A stretch of DNA of 42,418 nt from Nanobdellati archaeon (GTDB lineage: Archaea; Nanobdellota; Nanobdellia; Woesearchaeales; GCA-2686295): assembly GCA_014384375.1 (NCBI GenBank), contig JACNFY010000033.1:1-42418 (forward strand). The letters are read 5' to 3'. The notes beneath the pieces are model-generated. The model did no database searches and was not told the origin of the DNA. It saw only the letters and a program-made list of their open reading frames with translations. Below are positions 1,560-31,352 of this stretch, piece by piece (the first letter of the stretch is position 1; the number at the start of each line of letters is the position of its first letter). The translations under genes were made by a program, and so were the position numbers.

Positions 1560-2309
1560 GTGAGGAAAGCCCAAATAACAATATTTGCAACTCTTGGTCT
1601 TGTTTTGGTAATGATAGTTAGTTTGATTCTGTTCATGTTTAAGGATATCTCAACTAAGGATTTGGAAATACAACTAGATGATGATATTAAGTTTCAAAAG
1701 TATTATAAGATTGGAGAAACTTATCTAAAGTATTGCATTGATTTCCAACTAAGAGAGTTGTTAGATAACCTGTTTTCGAATGTGTTCATAGAGGTTTATG
1801 TAAATGATGGTCCAAGCGCTTATGTGAACGGAGAGTCCTTTGTTCTGGAGAATTATTTTAGTGGAGTAATGGATATATATGAAGGTCTTGCTCAGACAAT
1901 CGTTGAGAATTCTTACTGCTTGAACAATATTCCAAAGGAGATGCCTTTCCTGATTGTAAATGCATCCAACACACTAGTTGAATTCGATGTTTCTGATGCT
2001 TTGTTTGTCAGAACTTACCTGGATGCAACTGTTGAATACAAGGATATCATTGGCAGAATTGACAAGATCCAAAAGAACTACGGAGTGTTGTACGCAAGAG
2101 ATTTTAATCAAACCTTCAGACAAATAGTCGAATCATTCACATCCTGTGGTTCTGGCTTCTGTCTGCCAAATATCATGTTTTCAATGCCCCTGGAAATGAA
2201 GGTAAAAACTTCGAGAATAACAAATAATTTATACTATATAACCATAGAAAGAGATGGAACATTTATTGACAATCAAGAGATACAGCTAAACATGAGGGTT
2301 CACACATGA
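1560..2309 (+). CDS. Membrane-anchored surface protein with pilin-like N-terminus
   Basis: The family is not recognised. The 249-residue protein starts with MRKAQITIF followed by about 20 hydrophobic residues (to about 28), resembling archaeal class III (type IV pilin-like) signal peptides, where cleavage would fall just before the Gln. Similar RGQVTIF-type starts recur in DPANN archaeal surface proteins. The rest is soluble, with a few Cys residues (CIDFQ, YCLNN, SCGSGFC) that could form disulfides outside the cell. The start is GTG 1560: the ATG one base earlier is followed directly by TGA. It overlaps the next gene by 4 bp (ATGA), so the two are translationally coupled. Confidence 0.8.
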   Translation: MRKAQITIFATLGLVLVMIVSLILFMFKDISTKDLEIQLDDDIKFQKYYKIGETYLKYCIDFQLRELLDNLFSNVFIEVYVNDGPSAYVNGESFVLENYFSGVMDIYEGLAQTIVENSYCLNNIPKEMPFLIVNASNTLVEFDVSDALFVRTYLDATVEYKDIIGRIDKIQKNYGVLYARDFNQTFRQIVESFTSCGSGFCLPNIMFSMPLEMKVKTSRITNNLYYITIERDGTFIDNQEIQLNMRVHT

Positions 2310-2920
2310 AGAGATTGTTATTGTTCTGTTTGGTGTTATTAATAATTCCTTTTGCCAGTGCAGAGCTTGCCTATAAGTTTGATTTTGAAGAGAAAGATGG
2401 TGAATTAGTGGTTAATTTTGTTAATCTTGTCAATGTTGAGGATTATGAGATTGTCAGGCCTGTTATTGGCAAGTACTTGTTGGTTGCTGGTAATGGGACT
2501 TCTGATTATGAGTACTTGGATGGCGTGTTTTTCACTTTGCCAGCTGTGACTTTTGTTGCTTACTTGGATGAGGATGGTGAGTTCGCTGATTACACTGAGG
2601 AGAAGAATTCTACTGTTGTTTACCTACCCTATAATGAAGAGGTAAAGGAGTTCAAGGTTTTTATTGATAATGGTACTGAGGTGTTGAGTTTTCCAGCACC
2701 AGGTCAGGAAGCGGTTAAAACCCTGAGTGAGGAAATGGTTGAAGAGACTGTTGCTAAAGAGCTGCAGGATGATGAAGAAACAGCTGGAAAGTTAGATGTG
2801 AGCCCATCTTACAAAAGAAAACCTTGGCCAATTGTGACGATTATAATAGCTGTTCTAATAATAATAGCTGTGTATTTACTTAAGAAGAAATTTGAACAAA
2901 AAGATAATGAAGAGAATTAG
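2306..2920 (+). CDS. Secreted protein with C-terminal membrane anchor
   Basis: No family is recognised. Residues 1-19 form a Sec signal peptide (MKRLLLFCLVLLIIPFASA), followed by a beta-rich, acidic ectodomain of about 150 residues. Residues about 172-193 (PIVTIIIAVLIIIAVYLL) form a transmembrane helix with a positive cytoplasmic tail. The layout is that of a type I membrane protein displayed on the cell surface. It overlaps the upstream gene by 4 bp and the downstream giant protein by 14 bp, so the three exported proteins probably act together. Confidence 0.85.
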   Translation: MKRLLLFCLVLLIIPFASAELAYKFDFEEKDGELVVNFVNLVNVEDYEIVRPVIGKYLLVAGNGTSDYEYLDGVFFTLPAVTFVAYLDEDGEFADYTEEKNSTVVYLPYNEEVKEFKVFIDNGTEVLSFPAPGQEAVKTLSEEMVEETVAKELQDDEETAGKLDVSPSYKRKPWPIVTIIIAVLIIIAVYLLKKKFEQKDNEEN

Positions 2921-5900
2921 AACTATTAAATTATTAGGAATTATTTTTTTATTATTAACTCTAGCTAGCGCTGTTTCTACCAGTAGCGAGTCCGAAGTCT
3001 TCATTGAAGAGCTAAACTTCACAATGGACTATTTAAATCCTGAACATTACAACGAAGAAACTTTTCCTTACTGGGATTATAATCATAAGTTTTTCAACTA
3101 TGAGCTTATACCAGAAGAGTTATATACGAATCTTCCCTATGATTCTGAAGAGCTAGATTATTCCAGGATTAATTATAACAAGTTCTTACGAACAGCACAA
3201 CAATCATCAAATGAGAATATTCAAAGAATAAATTTTAAAAAGTTATTTTATGATTTTGGTTGTAAATCTTGCTTCATTTTAGAAAATAAAGGTCAATATT
3301 CTGGTTTGAATGAAAGATTGTTAGAGCCTCAATTAATGGGTGCTGAAATAAATCCTATAGATATTAAGCAATTAAGATTCTTAGAGATGACTGGAGAAAT
3401 CTATTTATCTTATGGTGATGAACACTTGTTCAAATTAACAAGCCTGGCTGATATTGATGCAGCAAACACAATTTACTTTTTTGAAGCAAAATTAAAAGGA
3501 AACAAATATTTCTCTCTGTTTCTAAAAGGAGACTCTAATAATTCAATTACTTTTCTAAAAAACATAAACAATATAATATTATCAGCAGATTTAGACAAAA
3601 ACTTTTTTTCTGAATTTAATCTTGACTTTCCTGAAGGATTGACAATAACAACACCTATATTAATAGAGAATAATAAAGACTCAAATAATGCTAAGTTATT
3701 ATTGCTACCAACAAAAGAACAAGAACTTGTTAATCCAGATACTGAAACAAACATGTTTTTTGAGTATAATAAGTTATCTAATTATTTAAAACTGTCATGC
3801 TTGTATCCTGATTGTGAATTTCTTGAGTTAACTAATGATTTCTTTAGTGTGAACAATGGTGTTTTAAAAATAAAACCTACAGGGAACGCGTTATTAAAAA
3901 AAACAAGATTCAACGGTTTACCGAGCTTTTTTGCTTTTGAAATAAACTCTAAAGAGGAGTATCTAATAACTGTTGATGCCTCAGATATTTCATTGTTTGA
4001 TGTAAGCGCTGATTCTGGAGAGGTTTACATAATACAAAAAGGTTTAAAGTCGAATAATCTGATAACATATTATATTTCAAACTCTAAATTAAAATTTGAA
4101 AATAATTCAGACAAGTTTAATTTAGAAAAATACACTATGACTTTTCCAACGATAGCGATTATTGGAAAAAACACTAAGAATGTTTTAAGTTTTAAAGATG
4201 AAGAATTATTATTCTCTCCTTTTGTTAATGTTGAATCTGAGTTTTCACAGGGAAAATCAAATGATGAGATACAAAAAAGTTTACATGAGAATTATCGTTC
4301 ATTTATAGTTGCAGATAAAGAATATTTTACTCTTCTTGAAGAGCTGGGTTATAATTTCATAAATTTTGAAAGTCTTAGTAATGAAGACATATTGAAACTT
4401 AGAAACGGTCTGGCGTTATTGCCTTGGACTTATAAAGAATTTTTAAAAACCATAGAATACGGTGTTGATGCATGTCCTGGAGCTACTACTGCTTGTGTTC
4501 AACAAGCAAGTTCTAAAATGTGGATTTCACCACATTATTTTTCAATGAGTGGTTCTGAAGATATGCGACCGGTTTATGATCCTGGAATTGTCTTGGTGCA
4601 TGAAGGCGCGCACTTGTATCATTTTTATCTTGATGCAATAGCAGAATATGACTTGTTTTACACTAATCCTTTTTTGACATTTCCAGGCTTTGCAAAAGCA
4701 CAACAAAATTTTGATAGTTTTTTTCAATTAGTTAAACAAGTTGGATCCCCATCTGAAATAATTGCTGAATTGCATACAGACCATGTAGAGTACTGCTTTG
4801 AATCGGTTAGAGGAAAGTATTTGGCAGGATTTTATGCTGATGAAACAGGAATACCCTACGAAATAATACCTTATCCCCAAAGTTGTATTGAGAAATATGG
4901 TTGTAAAAACGTGTTTGAAGATGTTGCAACAATTATACAAGCAGCGTATAATATCAATTTATACAGGGAAGAACACGAAAAGGATGCACTCTTAGATTAC
5001 AATGTAGGACTTCTTGCAAATGGGCGTTATCGAGACTTAAGCAAGAGGTTAAGTCCGCCTAGTAGTAGGGTCTTTGTAAGAACACCTTCTGGAGGGTTTT
5101 CTATCCCAAGACTCAGTTTTAACGATTATATTCCTTTTCCAGATGCTCGCTTTTTAGGAATAGAATTCCGCGGCTGTAAGGATACAAAACCAATAGGCTA
5201 TGCTCCTTGGTTAGATGCAAAAATAGAATATTTATGGCGTATGGGCTTTATGCCAGAGTGGATTGCTAATGGTTTAACAGATATTGGTTTTAGAACATAC
5301 GCTCAGAATCATTTTGAAGAAGACTTTGATATAATGAGAACTCAAGAAGACAAAAAAGAATCCTTTCTTCACAAACTATTAACTAAGAAGAGAGAAGCAA
5401 AAAAAGAATCAGAACCCTTATTTGATAAATTATCAACCAACAACATGATAACGATAAGGGATTATTTCATTAAAAATATCGAGTCAGAAAAGCTGGGTGT
5501 AACCTCTCAAGAGTATGTTGATTCTGCATTATTAGCTGCAATCATATTAACAGACTTGGAAAACTATATAGGCTTAGAAAATAGTGGCATATTGCCTGAA
5601 TACAAACAAGATGTCGCAGTTCAAGGAGATCTATCAAATTTTGATTTAGCAAGATGGATAGAGAATACTTACTTGAAAACTTTAAGCACTCGAGAAAAAC
5701 GTCAGAGATTTGAAAATACAGAAATAAAACAAGGAACATTCAAAAAATATTCTGGAAAATCAACACCTGAAGAATTAATTGATGGCTTAAAAAAAGATGG
5801 AAGATCATTTAAGCAAATTGATATAAATTCGGAAAGAATAGAGTGTAATGATTTTATCTTACTAAATAACATTGAAGAGTTATCTTCAGAAACAGGGTTA

Positions 5901-6569
5901 GATGGGATGGAAGGATTTATACCCTCAATCCAGGAAACCTGTTTTTTGCTATTCCCACTATATAACAGACATACTGATGAAGAAATAGGCTTTAAAATAA
6001 GCGGGGAAAAATTACTGAATATTTTATCCTGGAGACAAAAGCATTACACTGATAGTTTAAATCAAAACATAAGGCAAGTACAAGTTGAAGATCAGAGATA
6101 TGTAAAACATTACTATATTGAACTATACCCACAATTGTATTATCTTGGAGAGGTAATGGATTTACAAAACTTAGTTGACACCGTACAAGACTCCTCTCAC
6201 GACGTTATTTCATTAGCAGAACTGTTTGCAGACGCACTTTCGCCTTCATTACTACAGCCTGATTACAATAATCTATTTGGACAAAAAAATTATATAATCG
6301 AATTCTCAATAAAAACAAAAGACCTTGCATACTTAGAGTTGGCTTACGAGTTGTGGTTGTTGCAGGAATATTTAGAAGAGGAAGTTGGAGAGTTGAATAT
6401 TGAGTTTTTAGGTAACCTGTATAAGAATGGTTTCCCTGCAAGCGCAAAGTATAAAGACCCGAGCATTGAAGATATGACTGATTCAATCTCTTGGTTCAAA
6501 GACGAGAGCTATGGTAAAGTGCTTGAAGAAAACTACAATTATTTAGAAAAGAAACTTGACTTTGACTAG
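2907..6569 (+). CDS. Large secreted protein with HEGAH motif, putative zinc metallopeptidase
   Basis: The 1,220-residue protein begins with a signal peptide (MKRIRTIKLLGIIFLLLTLA). I chose ATG 2907 over the in-frame TTG 2892 because it gives a standard signal sequence. The first ~450 residues look beta-rich and hydrophilic, as in ectodomains. Residues 565-569 are HEGAH in the context IVLVHEGAHLYHF, a match to the HExxH zinc site. Glu621 or His623 in AELHTDH about 52 residues downstream could supply the third ligand, as in gluzincins. Cys pairs (GCKSC, CPGATTAC) suggest disulfides. The remaining ~550 residues are helical with no recognised domain. It ends an operon with two other exported proteins. 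The peptidase assignment rests on one motif and is tentative. Confidence 0.75.
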   Translation: MKRIRTIKLLGIIFLLLTLASAVSTSSESEVFIEELNFTMDYLNPEHYNEETFPYWDYNHKFFNYELIPEELYTNLPYDSEELDYSRINYNKFLRTAQQSSNENIQRINFKKLFYDFGCKSCFILENKGQYSGLNERLLEPQLMGAEINPIDIKQLRFLEMTGEIYLSYGDEHLFKLTSLADIDAANTIYFFEAKLKGNKYFSLFLKGDSNNSITFLKNINNIILSADLDKNFFSEFNLDFPEGLTITTPILIENNKDSNNAKLLLLPTKEQELVNPDTETNMFFEYNKLSNYLKLSCLYPDCEFLELTNDFFSVNNGVLKIKPTGNALLKKTRFNGLPSFFAFEINSKEEYLITVDASDISLFDVSADSGEVYIIQKGLKSNNLITYYISNSKLKFENNSDKFNLEKYTMTFPTIAIIGKNTKNVLSFKDEELLFSPFVNVESEFSQGKSNDEIQKSLHENYRSFIVADKEYFTLLEELGYNFINFESLSNEDILKLRNGLALLPWTYKEFLKTIEYGVDACPGATTACVQQASSKMWISPHYFSMSGSEDMRPVYDPGIVLVHEGAHLYHFYLDAIAEYDLFYTNPFLTFPGFAKAQQNFDSFFQLVKQVGSPSEIIAELHTDHVEYCFESVRGKYLAGFYADETGIPYEIIPYPQSCIEKYGCKNVFEDVATIIQAAYNINLYREEHEKDALLDYNVGLLANGRYRDLSKRLSPPSSRVFVRTPSGGFSIPRLSFNDYIPFPDARFLGIEFRGCKDTKPIGYAPWLDAKIEYLWRMGFMPEWIANGLTDIGFRTYAQNHFEEDFDIMRTQEDKKESFLHKLLTKKREAKKESEPLFDKLSTNNMITIRDYFIKNIESEKLGVTSQEYVDSALLAAIILTDLENYIGLENSGILPEYKQDVAVQGDLSNFDLARWIENTYLKTLSTREKRQRFENTEIKQGTFKKYSGKSTPEELIDGLKKDGRSFKQIDINSERIECNDFILLNNIEELSSETGLDGMEGFIPSIQETCFLLFPLYNRHTDEEIGFKISGEKLLNILSWRQKHYTDSLNQNIRQVQVEDQRYVKHYYIELYPQLYYLGEVMDLQNLVDTVQDSSHDVISLAELFADALSPSLLQPDYNNLFGQKNYIIEFSIKTKDLAYLELAYELWLLQEYLEEEVGELNIEFLGNLYKNGFPASAKYKDPSIEDMTDSISWFKDESYGKVLEENYNYLEKKLDFD

Positions 6570-15391: not shown

Positions 15392-15428
15392 ACAAAATTC
15401 TCTTTTGTAATTTTTTTAATTTTTATTT
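15392..15428 (+). terminator. Hairpin plus T-tract terminator after the cold-shock gene
   Basis: ACAAAA (15392-15397) pairs with TTTTGT (15403-15408) around a TTCTC loop, followed by T-rich sequence to about 15428. The CAAAA...TTTTG arms resemble those of the hairpin array at 26733-26836. Confidence 0.55.
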
Positions 15429-16670
15429 TTTAGTTAAGTTAAACGCTACTTCGTTGGCTTTCTCTAATATTTCCTCTTCATCTTTGACTTTTCTGTTCTG
15501 CATCAATATTTTTCCATTGCAGATAGTTGTGTCAACACAACTACTGTTTGCAGAGTAGACAAGGTTTGATATCAGGTTATGTCTTGGGTTAAGATGAATA
15601 TCATTTAGGTTTACTAGTAGTAGATCAGCTAGTTTTCCTTCTTTGATTTCCCCGCTGTTTAGATTGAAAACTTTGGCCCCGTTTATGGTTGCCATCCTGA
15701 AAGCTTCTGAAGCAGGCATCAGTGTTGGATTATGAGTGTGTGATTTCTGAAGCAGGGCTGCAAACTTCATCTCTTCAAGCATGTCAAGATTGTTGTTTGA
15801 GGCACAGCCATCAGTTCCTAGAGCAACTGTCAATGATTTCATTTTTTCATAAGGGAAAACACCTGATGAAAGTTTCATATTAGAAACTGGATTGTGTGCA
15901 ATTTTTACATTGTGTTTTTTCAAGATCCTTATTTCTCTGTCACTCAACCATATCGAGTGGCAAGCAACCACTCTTGGTCCTAAGAAACCTATCTTTTCAA
16001 GATACTCCACTGGCCTCATCCTGTGCTTTGCAATGCAGTCATCAACCTCACTCTTTGATTCTGAGAGATGAATGTGTATCAACAAGTTATTTTTGTCAGA
16101 GAACTCTTTTATCCATTGCAGACTCTCCTTGGAAACAGTGTAGATTGCATGTGGTCCTAAAGCAAAGATTACTCTTTCAGAGTATTTTTTTGTTTCTTGA
16201 AATAACCTCTTGTTCAGTTTTATCTGTTCTTCAGATTTTGCTTTGTCAAATAAGTCTATGAACACAGCAGAGACTGTTGCTCTCATGCCCATCTCATCTA
16301 CTGCCTTTGCTGTTCCGTGATAATGCCAGTACATGTCGTTGAAGAAAGTCGTTCCTGACTTTATCATCTCCAAGCAAGCCAGTTTTGCTCCCCAATAGAC
16401 ATCTTTTTCAGAGAGCTTTTCTTCTAGAGGCCATATCTTTGTCTGCAACCAATCCAACACCTTCATGTCATCAGCATAGCCGCGCATCAAAGTCATCGCT
16501 GCATGGGTATGTGCGTTTACAAAAGAAGGAATAACAGCTTTGTTCCTGCCATCGATTTTAAACTCTGCTTCTGTGTTGATGTTTTTACCAATCTGTGAGA
16601 TTTTATTTCCTTCGATAAGAATGTCTGTTTCTTTATTGTTTAACAAAGCTTTTTTTATCAGTATGCTCAT
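15423..16670 (-). CDS. mtaD: 5'-methylthioadenosine/S-adenosylhomocysteine deaminase
   Basis: The 415-residue amidohydrolase has metal ligands in VNAHTHAAM (His54, His56), HIHLSES, VACHS and LGTDGCASNN. It matches the MTA/SAH deaminase family, which converts MTA to methylthioinosine and SAH to S-inosylhomocysteine. Length is standard. It overlaps the upstream phosphorylase gene by 4 bp, which supports a two-step route: deamination of MTA, then phosphorolysis of the 6-oxopurine product. Confidence 0.92.
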   Translation of the reverse strand: MSILIKKALLNNKETDILIEGNKISQIGKNINTEAEFKIDGRNKAVIPSFVNAHTHAAMTLMRGYADDMKVLDWLQTKIWPLEEKLSEKDVYWGAKLACLEMIKSGTTFFNDMYWHYHGTAKAVDEMGMRATVSAVFIDLFDKAKSEEQIKLNKRLFQETKKYSERVIFALGPHAIYTVSKESLQWIKEFSDKNNLLIHIHLSESKSEVDDCIAKHRMRPVEYLEKIGFLGPRVVACHSIWLSDREIRILKKHNVKIAHNPVSNMKLSSGVFPYEKMKSLTVALGTDGCASNNNLDMLEEMKFAALLQKSHTHNPTLMPASEAFRMATINGAKVFNLNSGEIKEGKLADLLLVNLNDIHLNPRHNLISNLVYSANSSCVDTTICNGKILMQNRKVKDEEEILEKANEVAFNLTKK

Positions 16671-17287
16671 AATACTGCCTCCAGTAATCTAAGTATTTTC
16701 TCTTTGTTTTTATCTTGAGCTTTTTTTATTTCTTCAATGGTTAATCGCTTTTTAGTTATTCCATTTGCATAATTATCAACTGAGCAGATAGCAGCGTATT
16801 TAATTCCTAATTCTTTTGCCAATGTTGCTTCATTAGCCATTGTCATTCCAACAATATCCGCATAGTTTTTTATCATGTTTATCTCTGCTTTTGTCTCTAG
16901 TCTTGGACCGATTGTTTGGATGTAAATACCACTTTCCACAACAGTCATGCTTATCTTCTTAGCGGCAGTTATTATTTTCTGTCTTAGCTCTTCATTCAAA
17001 GCAGGGGTTATGTGCGCTGCTTTTAAGTCATGGTATGTCTGGATGTTTTTCAGGTTAATGTAATCATTAGGAATCACAATAGAACCTGGTGATATGCCAA
17101 GTTTTAGGGAGCCTACAGAACAAATACCAATCACAGTATCAACACCTTTGTTCTTCAATGATAGAAGATTAGCTTTGTGGTCTACTTTGTGTGGTGGAAT
17201 ATTTTTACCGTGTCTTTGCAGAAATACAACTCCCTGTTTTTCAAAATCCTTAAAACCAGATCCCCCTATAATAGCGATTTCCCCCAT
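16667..17287 (-). CDS. MTAP/PNP-family purine nucleoside phosphorylase, probably methylthioinosine phosphorylase
   Basis: The 206-residue protein has the family motifs IIGGSGFKDF, PPHKVDHKAN, IQTIGPRLETKAE and GMTMANEATLAKELGIKYA. The base-recognition segment is SVDNYANG: the Asn resembles 6-oxopurine-specific enzymes more than adenine-specific MTAP, which has an Asp-rich segment here. That fits methylthioinosine, the product of the coupled deaminase. It is about 50 residues shorter than typical MTAP. The products would be hypoxanthine and methylthioribose-1-phosphate. The substrate assignment is inference from context plus this residue. Confidence 0.85.
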   Translation of the reverse strand: MGEIAIIGGSGFKDFEKQGVVFLQRHGKNIPPHKVDHKANLLSLKNKGVDTVIGICSVGSLKLGISPGSIVIPNDYINLKNIQTYHDLKAAHITPALNEELRQKIITAAKKISMTVVESGIYIQTIGPRLETKAEINMIKNYADIVGMTMANEATLAKELGIKYAAICSVDNYANGITKKRLTIEEIKKAQDKNKEKILRLLEAVL

Positions 17288-22728: not shown

Positions 22729-23328
22729 ATGGCTCAAGTAGAAGCTTTTAACAGGTGGGATTGCTCGAATATAAAAGTTGAGGATCCTGGATTACAGAGA
22801 TACATAAACATCAAACCAGTCTTTGTACCAAGGACAGGCGCGAGATACGCTGGTAACAGATTTCACAAGTCAAGGATTTTCATAGTTGAAAGACTTATCA
22901 ACAAGGTTATGAACCCAGGCCACAAGGGTAAGAAGCACAAGATTACAAGCGGCTTGTGCACTGGTAAATCAACCACTGCTTACGGGTTGGTTGAGAAAGC
23001 TTTCAAGATTATTGAGCAGAAGCTCAAGAAAAACCCTGTAGAGGTGTTTGTCAAGGCCTTGGAGAACTCTGCACCAAGAGAAGAGATTGTTGCGATTGAA
23101 TACGGTGGAGCTCGCTACCCAAAATCTGTTGAGTGCTCACCGCAGAGAAGGATTGACGTTGCCCTGAGAATGATGACACAGGGTGCTTATCAGAAAGCCT
23201 TTAATTCTAAGAAAAAAGCAGAAACATGCCTTGCTGATGAAATCATAGCAGCCTATCAGTTAAGCCAGAGTTCAAACGCTATAGCCAAGAAGTTAGAGCT
23301 TGAAAGACAAGCAGACGCGAGTAAGTAA
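22729..23328 (+). CDS. rps7: Small ribosomal subunit protein uS7
   Basis: The 199-residue protein matches archaeal uS7. It has a basic N-terminal arm region (FNRWDCSNIK), the core NKVMNPGHKGKKHKITSG and VFVKALENSAPREEIV, and the conserved C-terminal QRRIDVALRMM and ECSPQR segments. It nucleates assembly of the 30S head and contacts tRNA in the E site. Length is typical for archaea. It stands apart from S12 and EF-1A, with which it is linked in many archaea, and is followed by two degenerate small genes. Confidence 0.96.
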   Translation: MAQVEAFNRWDCSNIKVEDPGLQRYINIKPVFVPRTGARYAGNRFHKSRIFIVERLINKVMNPGHKGKKHKITSGLCTGKSTTAYGLVEKAFKIIEQKLKKNPVEVFVKALENSAPREEIVAIEYGGARYPKSVECSPQRRIDVALRMMTQGAYQKAFNSKKKAETCLADEIIAAYQLSQSSNAIAKKLELERQADASK

Positions 23329-23889: not shown

Positions 23890-24549
23890 TCATGGCAAAT
23901 CTTCAAAGTTCAGCACCGGCTTTTTGAACTTCGGGTAGTCATCATATGCTATCCTTTCACAGGCCGTGTTTACAAAGCAGTCTATAAATGGGAAGTCTTC
24001 TAGTCTGTCAAACTCTATGTTGTTATTCACCAAAAAATAGAAGTCCTTGTCTGGGTATTTTTTCTTTATTTTCATGAATTGTAACAATTTGTTCTGGCCT
24101 GGCTTTGTCGTTACCAAGACACCGATGTTCTTGCTTATTAAGAACTTTGTCTTTGTGGCATCGAGTCTCTTTCTTATGAGTGTCGCATATCTCTTTGTCA
24201 GCTTAGAATACTTGTTCTCCACATGATTGTAGATGTGTACTAGCTTATCATTCTTTATAATCAATGCTTGTGGGTGGAACAATCCATCGCCAACATAGAA
24301 GAAAGCATCAAAATCTCCCTCAATCCTCTCTGTGTCGCAGCCAAGAAGCTGTCCTTTCTGGATTGTATGCCTTGGCTTTATCAACAGGACTTTTTTATCT
24401 GATTTCTCCAGTTGTTTTATAATATCATCTCTCTGGTCTATCAGCTGCGCTGTCATGAAGAACATTATTTTCTCTGGCAACTTTTCCAAGACACTTTTAG
24501 GTATATCAACTCTTTCCTTATATTTTGCTTCCACAAAGTATGTCTTCAT
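23890..24549 (-). CDS. Dph2-like protein lacking the N-terminal domain
   Basis: The 219-residue protein matches domains 2 and 3 of archaeal Dph2, which makes the 3-amino-3-carboxypropyl radical for diphthamide on EF-2. Recognisable segments are KGQLLGCD (Cys71), FFYVGDGLFHPQAL, TTKPGQN and CFVNTACERI (Cys191, Cys197). In Dph2 three Cys residues, one per domain, hold the 4Fe-4S cluster. The Cys71-Cys197 spacing (126) fits the second and third ligands, but the first domain and its Cys are absent, as no in-frame extension exists beyond ATG 24549. It may need a partner or have another role. Confidence 0.8.
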   Translation of the reverse strand: MKTYFVEAKYKERVDIPKSVLEKLPEKIMFFMTAQLIDQRDDIIKQLEKSDKKVLLIKPRHTIQKGQLLGCDTERIEGDFDAFFYVGDGLFHPQALIIKNDKLVHIYNHVENKYSKLTKRYATLIRKRLDATKTKFLISKNIGVLVTTKPGQNKLLQFMKIKKKYPDKDFYFLVNNNIEFDRLEDFPFIDCFVNTACERIAYDDYPKFKKPVLNFEDLP

Positions 24550-24652: not shown

Positions 24653-26557
24653 ATGGCTGAGTTAAAAAGAACACTAAGTTTTCCAGTTATTCTGCTTATA
24701 ACTATTAACTCAATTATGGGTACTGGTATTTTCTTTCTTCCTGCGATTGGAGCAAAGATTGCAGGACCAATGTCAATAATATCTTGGCTTGTACTTTCAA
24801 TTATAGCCATCTACATCGCCATGTGCTTTGGTGAGCTAGCAAGCATGTTTCCAAAATCAGGGGGTATTTATGAGTTCTGCAAGCAGGCTTATGGAAGCTT
24901 TACTTCCTTCATCGTAGGATGGATGACTCTCATAGCAGGTAATATCACTATAGCCATGCTTGTTGTTGGGGCTATCAGGTATCTAAACCCGGCTATGCCA
25001 GAAATTTTGAAGATTACTATAAGTCTCTTTTTCATACTGTTGTTCAATTTCATGGCCTATAATGGAATGAAGACAAGCGCAGTTATGCTGGTAGCTTTCG
25101 CTATTATCACACTCATGTCTATCTTTAGTCTTATTTTCCCAGGCGTTCTATCAATGAATTTCAATAACATGATTCCTTTCTTCACTCATTCCTGGCCTGC
25201 AGTCTTCATAGCAATATTCTTCATCGCAGAGACTTTCTTTGGTTGGGAAACAGCTACTTTCCTATCTGAGGAGACTAAGAATCCTACAAAAGTCATCCCA
25301 AAGGCACTTGTAACAGGAACAATAATCATCGCAATCATCTGTGTATTGTTTGTCATTACTTCTTTAGGCGCTATTAATTGGGAGATCTTCTCGGTTTCAA
25401 AAGCTCCTCTAACAGACCTTTCAGTATTCCATTATGGTGAGGCTGGAAAAAGTGTTTTCACAATCCTTGTCTATCTCTCAATCATCGGAAGCGTTGCTGG
25501 CTGGATTGTCTCATCTCCAAGACTAATCCTTGCATTGGCAAAGGATAAATTGTTTCTTTCACAGTGTGCTAAAATCCATCCAAGACACCATACTCCTCAT
25601 GTAGCCATAATATTCCAAACAATCCTGACAAGTATAATAGTTGTTATTGGGGCAGGCTCCTACGAGACTCTCTTAGAGTTGCTGTTGCCTCTAGTCCTTA
25701 TTATTTACTCCTTAACATTACTAAGTCTTGTCATTTTAAGATTTAAGATGCCTGAAGTCGAAAGACCTTACAAGGTTGCCTTTGGAAAAACGGGGCCTCT
25801 AATCATAATATTCATAATGCTTGGGTTGGTTGCTTTTTGGGTTACTAATGTTCATGGCGCAGTACAAGTGCTCAAGATAGGCGCATCATTCATCATATTC
25901 GGAATACCAATATACTTCCTATTATTGTTCTACTATGACCCCGATGCTATTATAAAGATAAACAATTACTTTGCTTTCTTCAACCTGTTCCTTGAGAATC
26001 TTCTGCTTCCAAAATCTGTTAGAAAGGATATTTTATCGCTATTCAAAGATATCAAAGGCAAGCACGTCTTGGATTATGGCTCAGGTGTTGGCACGCTTAC
26101 ACTTCACCTCGCAGAGGCTGTAGGTCCTAATGGAAAAGTCTACGCTACTGATTTGAGCAAGAGAAACATCAAGATACTTGAGAAAAGACTTAAAAAGAGA
26201 AAGTACGAGCATGTTGAAGTCATACATGATGAGCATCACGTTAGCAGAGTCCATCCAAATATCAAGTATGTTGACATGGTTTTCTCTGTCGGGATGATGG
26301 GTTACATGCAGAACATCAAGAAGATCCTATCAGATATAAAGGATGTCTTGCCTGAGAACGGAAGGGTTTTCTTTGCTGAATATGTAGATTTCTTCTGGGT
26401 ATTACCAAATGTTGAGTGGTTGTCTTCGAACGAGAAGATAGAGGAGCTATTCAGGGAAGCAGGATTCTCTGTCAGAGTTATAAAGAAGAAAGCTTTGTTC
26501 TGGAATTATGTTTTTGTATATGGTATAAAATCAGAGAAAGATGTTCCATTCATCTAA
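24653..26557 (+). CDS. Amino-acid permease (APC superfamily) fused to a SAM-dependent methyltransferase
   Basis: The 634-residue protein has two parts in one uninterrupted frame. Residues 1 to about 430 are an APC-type transporter: SIMGTGIFFLPAIGA in TM1, FGELASMFPKSGGIYEF in the TM2-3 region, ETATFLSEETKNP and about 12 hydrophobic helices. Residues about 445-634 are a class I methyltransferase with motif I VLDYGSGVGTLTLHLAEA (from residue 472), the acidic YATDLSK strand and a C-terminal EEL(F)REAGFSV segment. With 12 helices the methyltransferase would face the cytosol. The transported substrate and the methyl acceptor are unknown. The 3' end overlaps the zinc-protein gene by 4 bp. Confidence 0.9.
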   Translation: MAELKRTLSFPVILLITINSIMGTGIFFLPAIGAKIAGPMSIISWLVLSIIAIYIAMCFGELASMFPKSGGIYEFCKQAYGSFTSFIVGWMTLIAGNITIAMLVVGAIRYLNPAMPEILKITISLFFILLFNFMAYNGMKTSAVMLVAFAIITLMSIFSLIFPGVLSMNFNNMIPFFTHSWPAVFIAIFFIAETFFGWETATFLSEETKNPTKVIPKALVTGTIIIAIICVLFVITSLGAINWEIFSVSKAPLTDLSVFHYGEAGKSVFTILVYLSIIGSVAGWIVSSPRLILALAKDKLFLSQCAKIHPRHHTPHVAIIFQTILTSIIVVIGAGSYETLLELLLPLVLIIYSLTLLSLVILRFKMPEVERPYKVAFGKTGPLIIIFIMLGLVAFWVTNVHGAVQVLKIGASFIIFGIPIYFLLLFYYDPDAIIKINNYFAFFNLFLENLLLPKSVRKDILSLFKDIKGKHVLDYGSGVGTLTLHLAEAVGPNGKVYATDLSKRNIKILEKRLKKRKYEHVEVIHDEHHVSRVHPNIKYVDMVFSVGMMGYMQNIKKILSDIKDVLPENGRVFFAEYVDFFWVLPNVEWLSSNEKIEELFREAGFSVRVIKKKALFWNYVFVYGIKSEKDVPFI

Positions 26558-30437: not shown

Positions 30438-31352
30438 TTGAAAAGAGCTGTTTTTATAGGCAGGTTTGCTCCTTTTCATAAAGGACACTTGAGTTTGATG
30501 CAGAAGAAGATAGACGAAGGAGTGCCTTTATTAATCCTAATAAGAGACACTCATTATGATTCTTACTCTGCTGAAGTCAGAAAAAGAATGATTCAGGCTT
30601 GTATGAAAAAGCTTAAAGTTGATGCTAAAATAATGATCATAGATGATATTGAAAGCATTAATTATGGTAGAGGTGTTGGTTACGACGTCTGTGAAATTGA
30701 AGTGATTCCTGAACTAAAGAAAATTTCTGCTAGCGACATTAGAACTAAGATAGATGAAGGTGATGACTCTTGGAAAAAATTGTTGGCTCCTGGCGCAGAT
30801 AAGGTTTTAGAGGATTACTTATCTAAAAAAGGTATTGTGGTATGGTTTACAGGATTGCCAGTTGCAGGAAAAACCACTATTGCTGATGCTGTTAGTGATG
30901 TCTTAAGAAAAAAAGAGATAAGATGTGAAAGGCTAGACGGCGATATACTCAGAAAACATATTACTAAAGATTTGGGGTTTAGCAAAAAAGATAGAGAGAA
31001 AAACTTGGAAAGAGCAACCTTCATAGCGAAAATATTAGCTAGAAACGGAGTGGTTGTTTTATCATCTTTCATAACCCCATATGAATCAGTTAGACAAAAG
31101 ATAAGAAAAGAGTTAGAAAAAGAAGCCACTTTTATCGAAGTCTATGTGAAAGCCTCATTAGAGACTTGTAAAAAAAGAGATTACAAAGGATTGTATGAGA
31201 AGGCAGAAAAAGGATTGATAAAAAACTTTACCGGGATAAGCGATCCTTTTGAAAAGCCAGAAACCCCTGACTTGATACTTGATACTGAGAACAAGACAGT
31301 TGAAGAATGTAAAGAAGAGGTATTGAAATATATTGAGAGTTTAATAGATTAA
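30438..31352 (+). CDS. Nucleotidyltransferase fused to adenylylsulfate (APS) kinase
   Basis: The 304-residue protein has two parts. Residues 1 to about 130 are a compact HxGH nucleotidyltransferase (FIGRFAPFHKGHLSLM with His14 and His17, and KKISASDIR as the ISxxxxR motif), resembling NMN adenylyltransferase. Residues about 131-304 are an APS kinase: P-loop FTGLPVAGKTT (139-147), RLDGDILRK, LGFSKKDREKNLERA and FEKPETPDLILDT. The kinase turns APS into PAPS, the donor for sulfotransferases, two of which lie downstream. Whether the N-terminal domain makes APS or acts on another substrate is unclear. The start is TTG with GGAGGG upstream. Confidence 0.9.
   Translation: MKRAVFIGRFAPFHKGHLSLMQKKIDEGVPLLILIRDTHYDSYSAEVRKRMIQACMKKLKVDAKIMIIDDIESINYGRGVGYDVCEIEVIPELKKISASDIRTKIDEGDDSWKKLLAPGADKVLEDYLSKKGIVVWFTGLPVAGKTTIADAVSDVLRKKEIRCERLDGDILRKHITKDLGFSKKDREKNLERATFIAKILARNGVVVLSSFITPYESVRQKIRKELEKEATFIEVYVKASLETCKKRDYKGLYEKAEKGLIKNFTGISDPFEKPETPDLILDTENKTVEECKEEVLKYIESLID

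Follow-up and report, generated by a model that had tools for sequence, protein, structure and literature searches.

The window analysed here is the whole 42,418-nucleotide stretch of contig JACNFY010000033.1 from a Nanobdellati archaeon, and it carries a frame that runs from ATG to TAA over 634 codons with zero internal stops (Table 1). The encoded protein is an APC-type permease (about residues 5–425) followed by a helical linker and a class I SAM-methyltransferase domain (about residues 456–626), in which the permease ends at about residue 425 and the methyltransferase-associated helices start at about residue 430. The initial annotation had described an APC transporter and a class I methyltransferase in one frame, without a stop or frame change at a join placed at about residues 430–445; Pfam supports both domains, the join is correctly placed, and the intact frame and the architecture recur in homologues. 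AlphaFold2 folded the whole chain with a mean pLDDT of 87.6 and a pTM of 0.77 (15-sequence alignment), and residues 428–634 alone with a pLDDT of 87.6 and a pTM of 0.86. ATG and GTG restart codons are absent at the join, with TTG at codons 425 and 473 as the only candidates, and expression of a separate methyltransferase from an internal restart was rejected on the lack of ATG and GTG.

Table 1. Coordinates of the fusion gene, its domains and key residues, and a conserved neighbouring gene in the window.
Feature	Position	Strand	Basis
Permease-methyltransferase fusion gene, 634 aa	24653..26557	+	Intact frame, Pfam, homologues in one frame, AlphaFold2 pLDDT 87.6
APC-fold permease domain, residues 5–425	24665..25927	+	Pfam, PDB sequence matches, Foldseek
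Glu193 codon, TM6, position of LAT1 Phe252	25229..25231	+	Alignment with LAT1, conservation
Helical linker, residues 428–462, part of the methyltransferase module	25934..26038	+	AlphaFold2 model, residue conservation
Class I SAM-methyltransferase core, residues 463–626	26039..26530	+	Pfam, domain model, Foldseek
Motif I DYGSGVGT, residues 474–481, SAM-binding loop	26072..26095	+	Sequence conservation
Asp500, motif II acidic residue	26150..26152	+	Asp in 61/73 main-clade and 5/14 VSD-clade sequences
Glu576, following strand 5, possible residue of the active site	26378..26380	+	Sequence conservation
Ribosomal protein S7 gene, conserved neighbour	22729..23328	+	S7 homologue near family members

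The Pfam model AA_permease_2 (PF13520) matched residues 9–411 of the permease part with an E-value of 3.7e-48 (165 bits against a gathering cut-off of 27), covering model positions 2–420 of 427. PDB sequence matches were xCT, BasC, LAT1 and AdiC, and Foldseek returned the LeuT-type fold of LAT1, BasC and AdiC (TMt 0.80–0.85, about 0.83 for LAT1 and BasC). Cut-offs of the curated NCBIfam APC subfamilies were not reached, the best being TIGR00909 (196 bits against 556.8). TM1 retains the motif G23-T-G-I-F, and the TM6 segment reads E193-T-F-F-G-W-E199, in which G197 was found in all 73 sequences of the main clade and E199 in 71 of them. Regarding Glu193, which aligns with F252, a gate residue of LAT1, Glu was conserved in 71/73 main-clade sequences and in 14/14 sequences of a second clade described below (VSD clade), or 85 of 87 overall; Phe takes this position in five unfused Woesearchaeal APC permeases, which are 22–28% identical. 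We read E193 as a hint at a cationic or amine-bearing substrate or at proton coupling.

The linker forms helices at residues 430–462 in the AlphaFold2 model, and its residues Y428, I433, E448 and P453 were invariant among 15 aligned homologues (E448 in 66/73 and P453 in 65/73 main-clade sequences). Several Pfam methyltransferase families match residues 456–603, the best being Methyltransf_31 on residues 468–603 (E 5.9e-14, 52.4 bits against a cut-off of 27). Foldseek matched this part to 3dh0 (E 1.5e-13), CbiT, METTL6 and PMT, and PDB profile matches were phosphoethanolamine N-methyltransferase, KsgA-type enzymes and 3dh0, while none of the curated NCBIfam cut-offs for UbiE/MenG, CbiT, ArsM and UbiG was reached (best 56.6 bits against 419.9). 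The protein carries both class I motifs, namely motif I, present as LDYGSGVGT and intact as first annotated, and the motif II Asp500; the motif II acidic residue is a SAM ribose contact in the class I fold. In the main clade, motif I residues G476, G480 and Asp/Glu474 were conserved in 71, 70 and 67 of the 73 sequences, respectively. Position 576 was Asp or Glu in 73/73 main-clade sequences and Val or Ile in 14/14 VSD-clade sequences, and W617, W589 and Y619 occurred in 72, 66 and 65 of the 73 main-clade sequences. Asp/Glu576, W589, W617 and Y619 resemble a candidate substrate pocket outside the SAM site, and their conservation, together with that of the SAM site, speaks for an active enzyme.

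A scan of GTDB contigs, which detects close relatives only, gave 15 loci from Woesearchaeota/'Nanoarchaeota' MAGs or one further archaeon, and at least 13 of these align over the full length at 43–85% identity with the same domain order in one frame. Among 288 genomes of the window's order, 170 matched at E ≤1e-10 and 140 at E ≤1e-100 (table count), genome counts here and below ignoring relatedness among the genomes; the fusion family was thereby assigned to about 140 of the 288 genomes, nearly all with a single open frame of 605–860 aa. Divergent fusions of 629–663 aa, 37–39% identical to the window protein, occur outside the order in families f112, f114, f115 and f117 of the same class. A profile of the methyltransferase module (linker and C-terminal part) was also run on 371 genomes of the phylum, and its whole-module matches lay in frames of at least 540 aa, save a few contig-end frames and one true exception in the genome G072. 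The same domain order was found in well over 100 genomes, and the idea that homologues are always split near residue 440, which the initial annotation had raised against itself, clearly does not hold, the fusions being nearly always in one frame. Since about half of the order's sampled genomes carry the join, the fusion is old and selected.

Two other explanations were rejected. An artefact or misassembly of MAGs was ruled out by recurrence of the fusion across many genera, families and genomes with few contigs, and split genes as the normal state were ruled out because the listed short frames with a full module lie at contig ends, save that of G072. One further family member, an 853-aa protein (L057:1866-4424), has an added C-terminal DUF3108-like domain.

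Both domains are constrained to a similar degree. Mean column conservation in the 73 main-clade sequences was 0.60 for the permease and 0.58 for the methyltransferase, and among seven close relatives dN was 0.09–0.30 in either domain, with synonymous sites mostly saturated, indicating that both are under purifying selection. Trees of the APC and methyltransferase parts (quick searches without bootstrap) had 23 of 84 splits in common, compared with a mean of 0.2 and a maximum of 2 in shuffles, and the distances in the two parts correlate outside the VSD clade (Spearman 0.47). Such common splits and correlated distances are to be expected if the two parts were inherited jointly.

One clade of 14 sequences (support 100 in a quick tree) gains about 155 N-terminal residues. 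A profile of this 155-aa region, built from five sequences, matches the KvAP VSD with an E-value of 2.6e-5; Ion_trans was matched at E 7.5e-4, below its curated cut-off, in one of two clade members scanned, and the S4 segment of the protein at L048 has 13 Arg/Lys residues spaced 3 or 4 apart. The added domain therefore looks, at the level of sequence, like an S1–S4 voltage sensor. By profile search, the fused VSD form was found in 15/288 genomes from six families (loci including L048:6619-8949, L049:949-3228, L051, L053, L055 and L056) and not in the window genome. In family f62, main-clade, VSD and divergent copies can follow one another in tandem, as at L048. In the VSD clade, divergence of the methyltransferase part has been about threefold that of the permease (median ratio 3.06, versus 0.79 elsewhere), G476 and Asp/Glu576 are lost in 14/14 sequences, and P585-N586 and G624 are kept. 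Here the former SAM enzyme probably persists as a degenerate domain with a structural or regulatory role. Because the clade keeps the domain with its SAM site lost, the fold also has a non-catalytic value to the transporter.

Separately from the fused form, VSD-like proteins of 187–216 aa, or an Ion_trans plus pore-domain (Ion_trans_2) protein, adjoin family members in several genomes (L010:3383-3943, L011:3241-3864 and 2220-3203, L039:496-1437, L111:238-885). The VSD profile matches 110/288 genomes of the order, mostly in frames of about 130–340 aa, which may represent voltage sensors or channels that stand alone.

The exception in G072 is a frame of 210 codons (L099:2994-3623) that encodes a methyltransferase of about 195 aa. 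S7 and aIF2-gamma genes lie near this frame, as in the window, and the enzyme retains EYGCNVGT, EYDNF and WQY. The family's APC domain was not found in G072, where AA_permease_2 matches just one remote permease of another kind. The simplest reading of this single genome is that the permease was lost and the enzyme retained. Since the enzyme is kept there without the permease, the methyltransferase seems useful alone, unlike a pure regulatory domain.

Regarding genomic context, an S7 homologue lies near family members in 20 loci, although some are the same place counted twice, as in several of our locus counts, which include one genomic place under two ids. A Dph2-like gene (23890-24549, minus strand; 219 aa, lacking roughly the initial 70 positions of the Dph2 model) is a neighbour of the fusion gene in 10–13 of the loci examined. 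Neighbours were tried as a clue to the substrate and gave none, the recurrent genes being S7, Dph2-like, SppA/RDD and others, with zero metabolic partners. Two other window genes were noted: 30438-31352 (plus strand) encodes a weakly cytidylyltransferase-like N-terminus (residues 5–60) and a complete APS kinase domain (131–282) in one frame, and 2892-6569 (plus strand) encodes a secreted-looking protein of 1225 aa that has zero Pfam matches and a HExxH motif (HEGAH) possibly of the metalloprotease type.

As for the supply of SAM, the window genome has a bacterial-type MetK and lacks an archaeal MAT, and the idea that it has no SAM synthetase at all was rejected on this basis. At 15423-17287 (minus strand), MTA/SAH deaminase-like and MTA phosphorylase-like genes adjoin with a four-base overlap, both below curated cut-offs, and point to turnover or salvage of SAM by-products; with MetK and these genes present, SAM turnover is to be expected. 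Of the 140 fusion genomes, 115 were found to have a SAM synthetase of one type or the other, compared with 100 of the 148 that lack the fusion (odds ratio 2.2, p 0.006, relatedness ignored). In the other 25 of the 140, neither type was found, for instance in G010, which is one contig and 100% complete. Near-complete Woesearchaeal genomes in which Pfam models detected neither type include G010, G062 and G068.

The fusion, its conservation, the conserved SAM site and the candidate substrate site are direct observations on the aligned proteins. From these we infer inward transport, catalysis, an amine substrate and a physical link between transport and catalysis. The two proposals of the initial annotation, that uptake is coupled to methylation or that SAM regulates transport, stand as hypotheses. 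The reading we prefer, to which we give nearly an even chance, is a bifunctional importer and methyltransferase whose enzyme acts on the imported amine or on a membrane-proximal substrate. The APC domain would import an amino acid or amine, with a cationic or amine-bearing substrate favoured by the TM6 glutamate, and the C-terminal methyltransferase would lie on the cytosolic side, beneath the point where the transport path opens, and bind SAM. The enzyme would methylate the incoming compound or a small membrane-presented substrate, and methylation would trap the imported compound or commit it metabolically. Conservation of residues beyond the SAM site and the stand-alone enzyme of G072 strengthen the enzymatic reading. 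Several points count against the importer-methyltransferase: the closest solved methyltransferases (3dh0, CbiT and phosphoethanolamine N-methyltransferase) are generic matches and name no substrate, the VSD clade keeps the domain after losing the SAM site, 25/140 fusion genomes show no SAM synthetase of either type, and the stand-alone case is one genome.

The main rival is that the C-terminal domain is a SAM-sensing gate, in which binding of SAM or SAH opens or closes the permease, for example as feedback on methionine or amino-acid uptake. Rossmann-like cytosolic C-terminal domains do regulate other APC-superfamily proteins, and c-di-AMP-bound KimA is among the fold matches; the decayed domain retained in the VSD clade likewise suggests that the fold serves the transporter in some way other than catalysis, and the 23 shared splits, against at most 2 in shuffles, show that both parts were inherited together. 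On the other hand, the near-invariant, pocket-like Asp/Glu576, W589, W617 and Y619 would be superfluous for sensing alone, and a methyltransferase without permease exists in G072; we consider such a gate possible though rather unlikely. Another explanation is that the APC domain is a membrane tether that anchors a lipid, quinone or membrane-protein methyltransferase, transport being secondary or lost. Family-level best matches that include MenG/UbiE quinone methyltransferases, and linker helices adjoining the membrane domain in the AlphaFold2 model, would suit a tether, but conservation is as high in the APC domain as in the enzyme, and the unwinding motifs of TM1 and TM6 are retained, which is more than an anchor would need, and the curated UbiE/MenG cut-offs are far from reached; we regard it as improbable. 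Least credible, and very improbable in our judgement, is that the permease serves to take up SAM, or a sulfonium compound related to it, with the fused enzyme as first consumer. For this speak the invariant TM6 glutamate, which might lie opposite a cation, and the 25 fusion genomes, G010 included, that have no detectable SAM synthetase; against it, the synthetase is commoner with the fusion than without it and MetK is present in the window genome.

The importer-methyltransferase can be extended into a joint reading of the main and VSD clades, in which uptake would be tied to SAM at the inner membrane face (vectorial methylation), one branch would be regulated by voltage with its methyltransferase as a non-catalytic coupling domain, and the neighbouring VSD- and channel-like genes would belong to the same membrane-potential circuit; taken as a whole, this seems unlikely.

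Compared with known systems, the permease shares with LAT1/SLC7A5, BasC, xCT, AdiC and GkApcT the 12-helix LeuT-type fold, the TM1 GxGIF motif and the TM6 GxE region, whereas the family differs from these APC transporters in Glu193 in place of LAT1 Phe252, in its C-terminal methyltransferase and, in one clade, in the N-terminal voltage-sensor-like domain. Similarly, the enzyme resembles 3dh0, phosphoethanolamine N-methyltransferase and MenG (Methyltransf_31/UbiE/PMT type) in its Rossmann-like fold, motif I and acidic motif II, but has its own C-terminal signature E/D-Y-x-x-F-F..PN..W ... W-x-Y and the N-terminal linker helices. A transporter followed by a cytosolic alpha/beta domain is also found in KimA and the cation-chloride cotransporters, whose C-terminal domains bind c-di-AMP or are targets of phosphorylation and are not methyltransferases. 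Bacterial fused MFS/spermidine synthase proteins combine a transporter with an enzyme of the class I methyltransferase fold, yet both the transporter fold and the enzyme differ from those described here; our literature search for this MFS fusion returned no paper. Within the literature searched, whose coverage was incomplete, no description of an APC-methyltransferase or APC-VSD fusion was found, and permeases go unmentioned in the main text of a survey of archaeal fusions (PMC11237513). The design is thus apparently undescribed: a new cytosolic partner is joined to an APC transporter and, in one clade, a new membrane partner as well.

No Woesearchaeota are in culture; these archaea are mostly reduced and presumed to depend on metabolites taken up from outside. 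Occurrence of the fusion in about half of the order's genomes suggests transport-linked methylation or SAM control of uptake. According to the abstract of PMC10620092, no transporter other than the voltage-gated sperm Na+/H+ exchanger SLC9C1 is known to be under the control of voltage-sensing domains. The VSD-APC-methyltransferase form is similar to it in being a transporter fused to an S1–S4 voltage-sensor-type domain, but it is archaeal and has an unrelated transporter fold and a different VSD position and partners. The VSD clade would be, by sequence, a second kind of voltage-sensor transporter besides SLC9C1, and a prokaryotic one.
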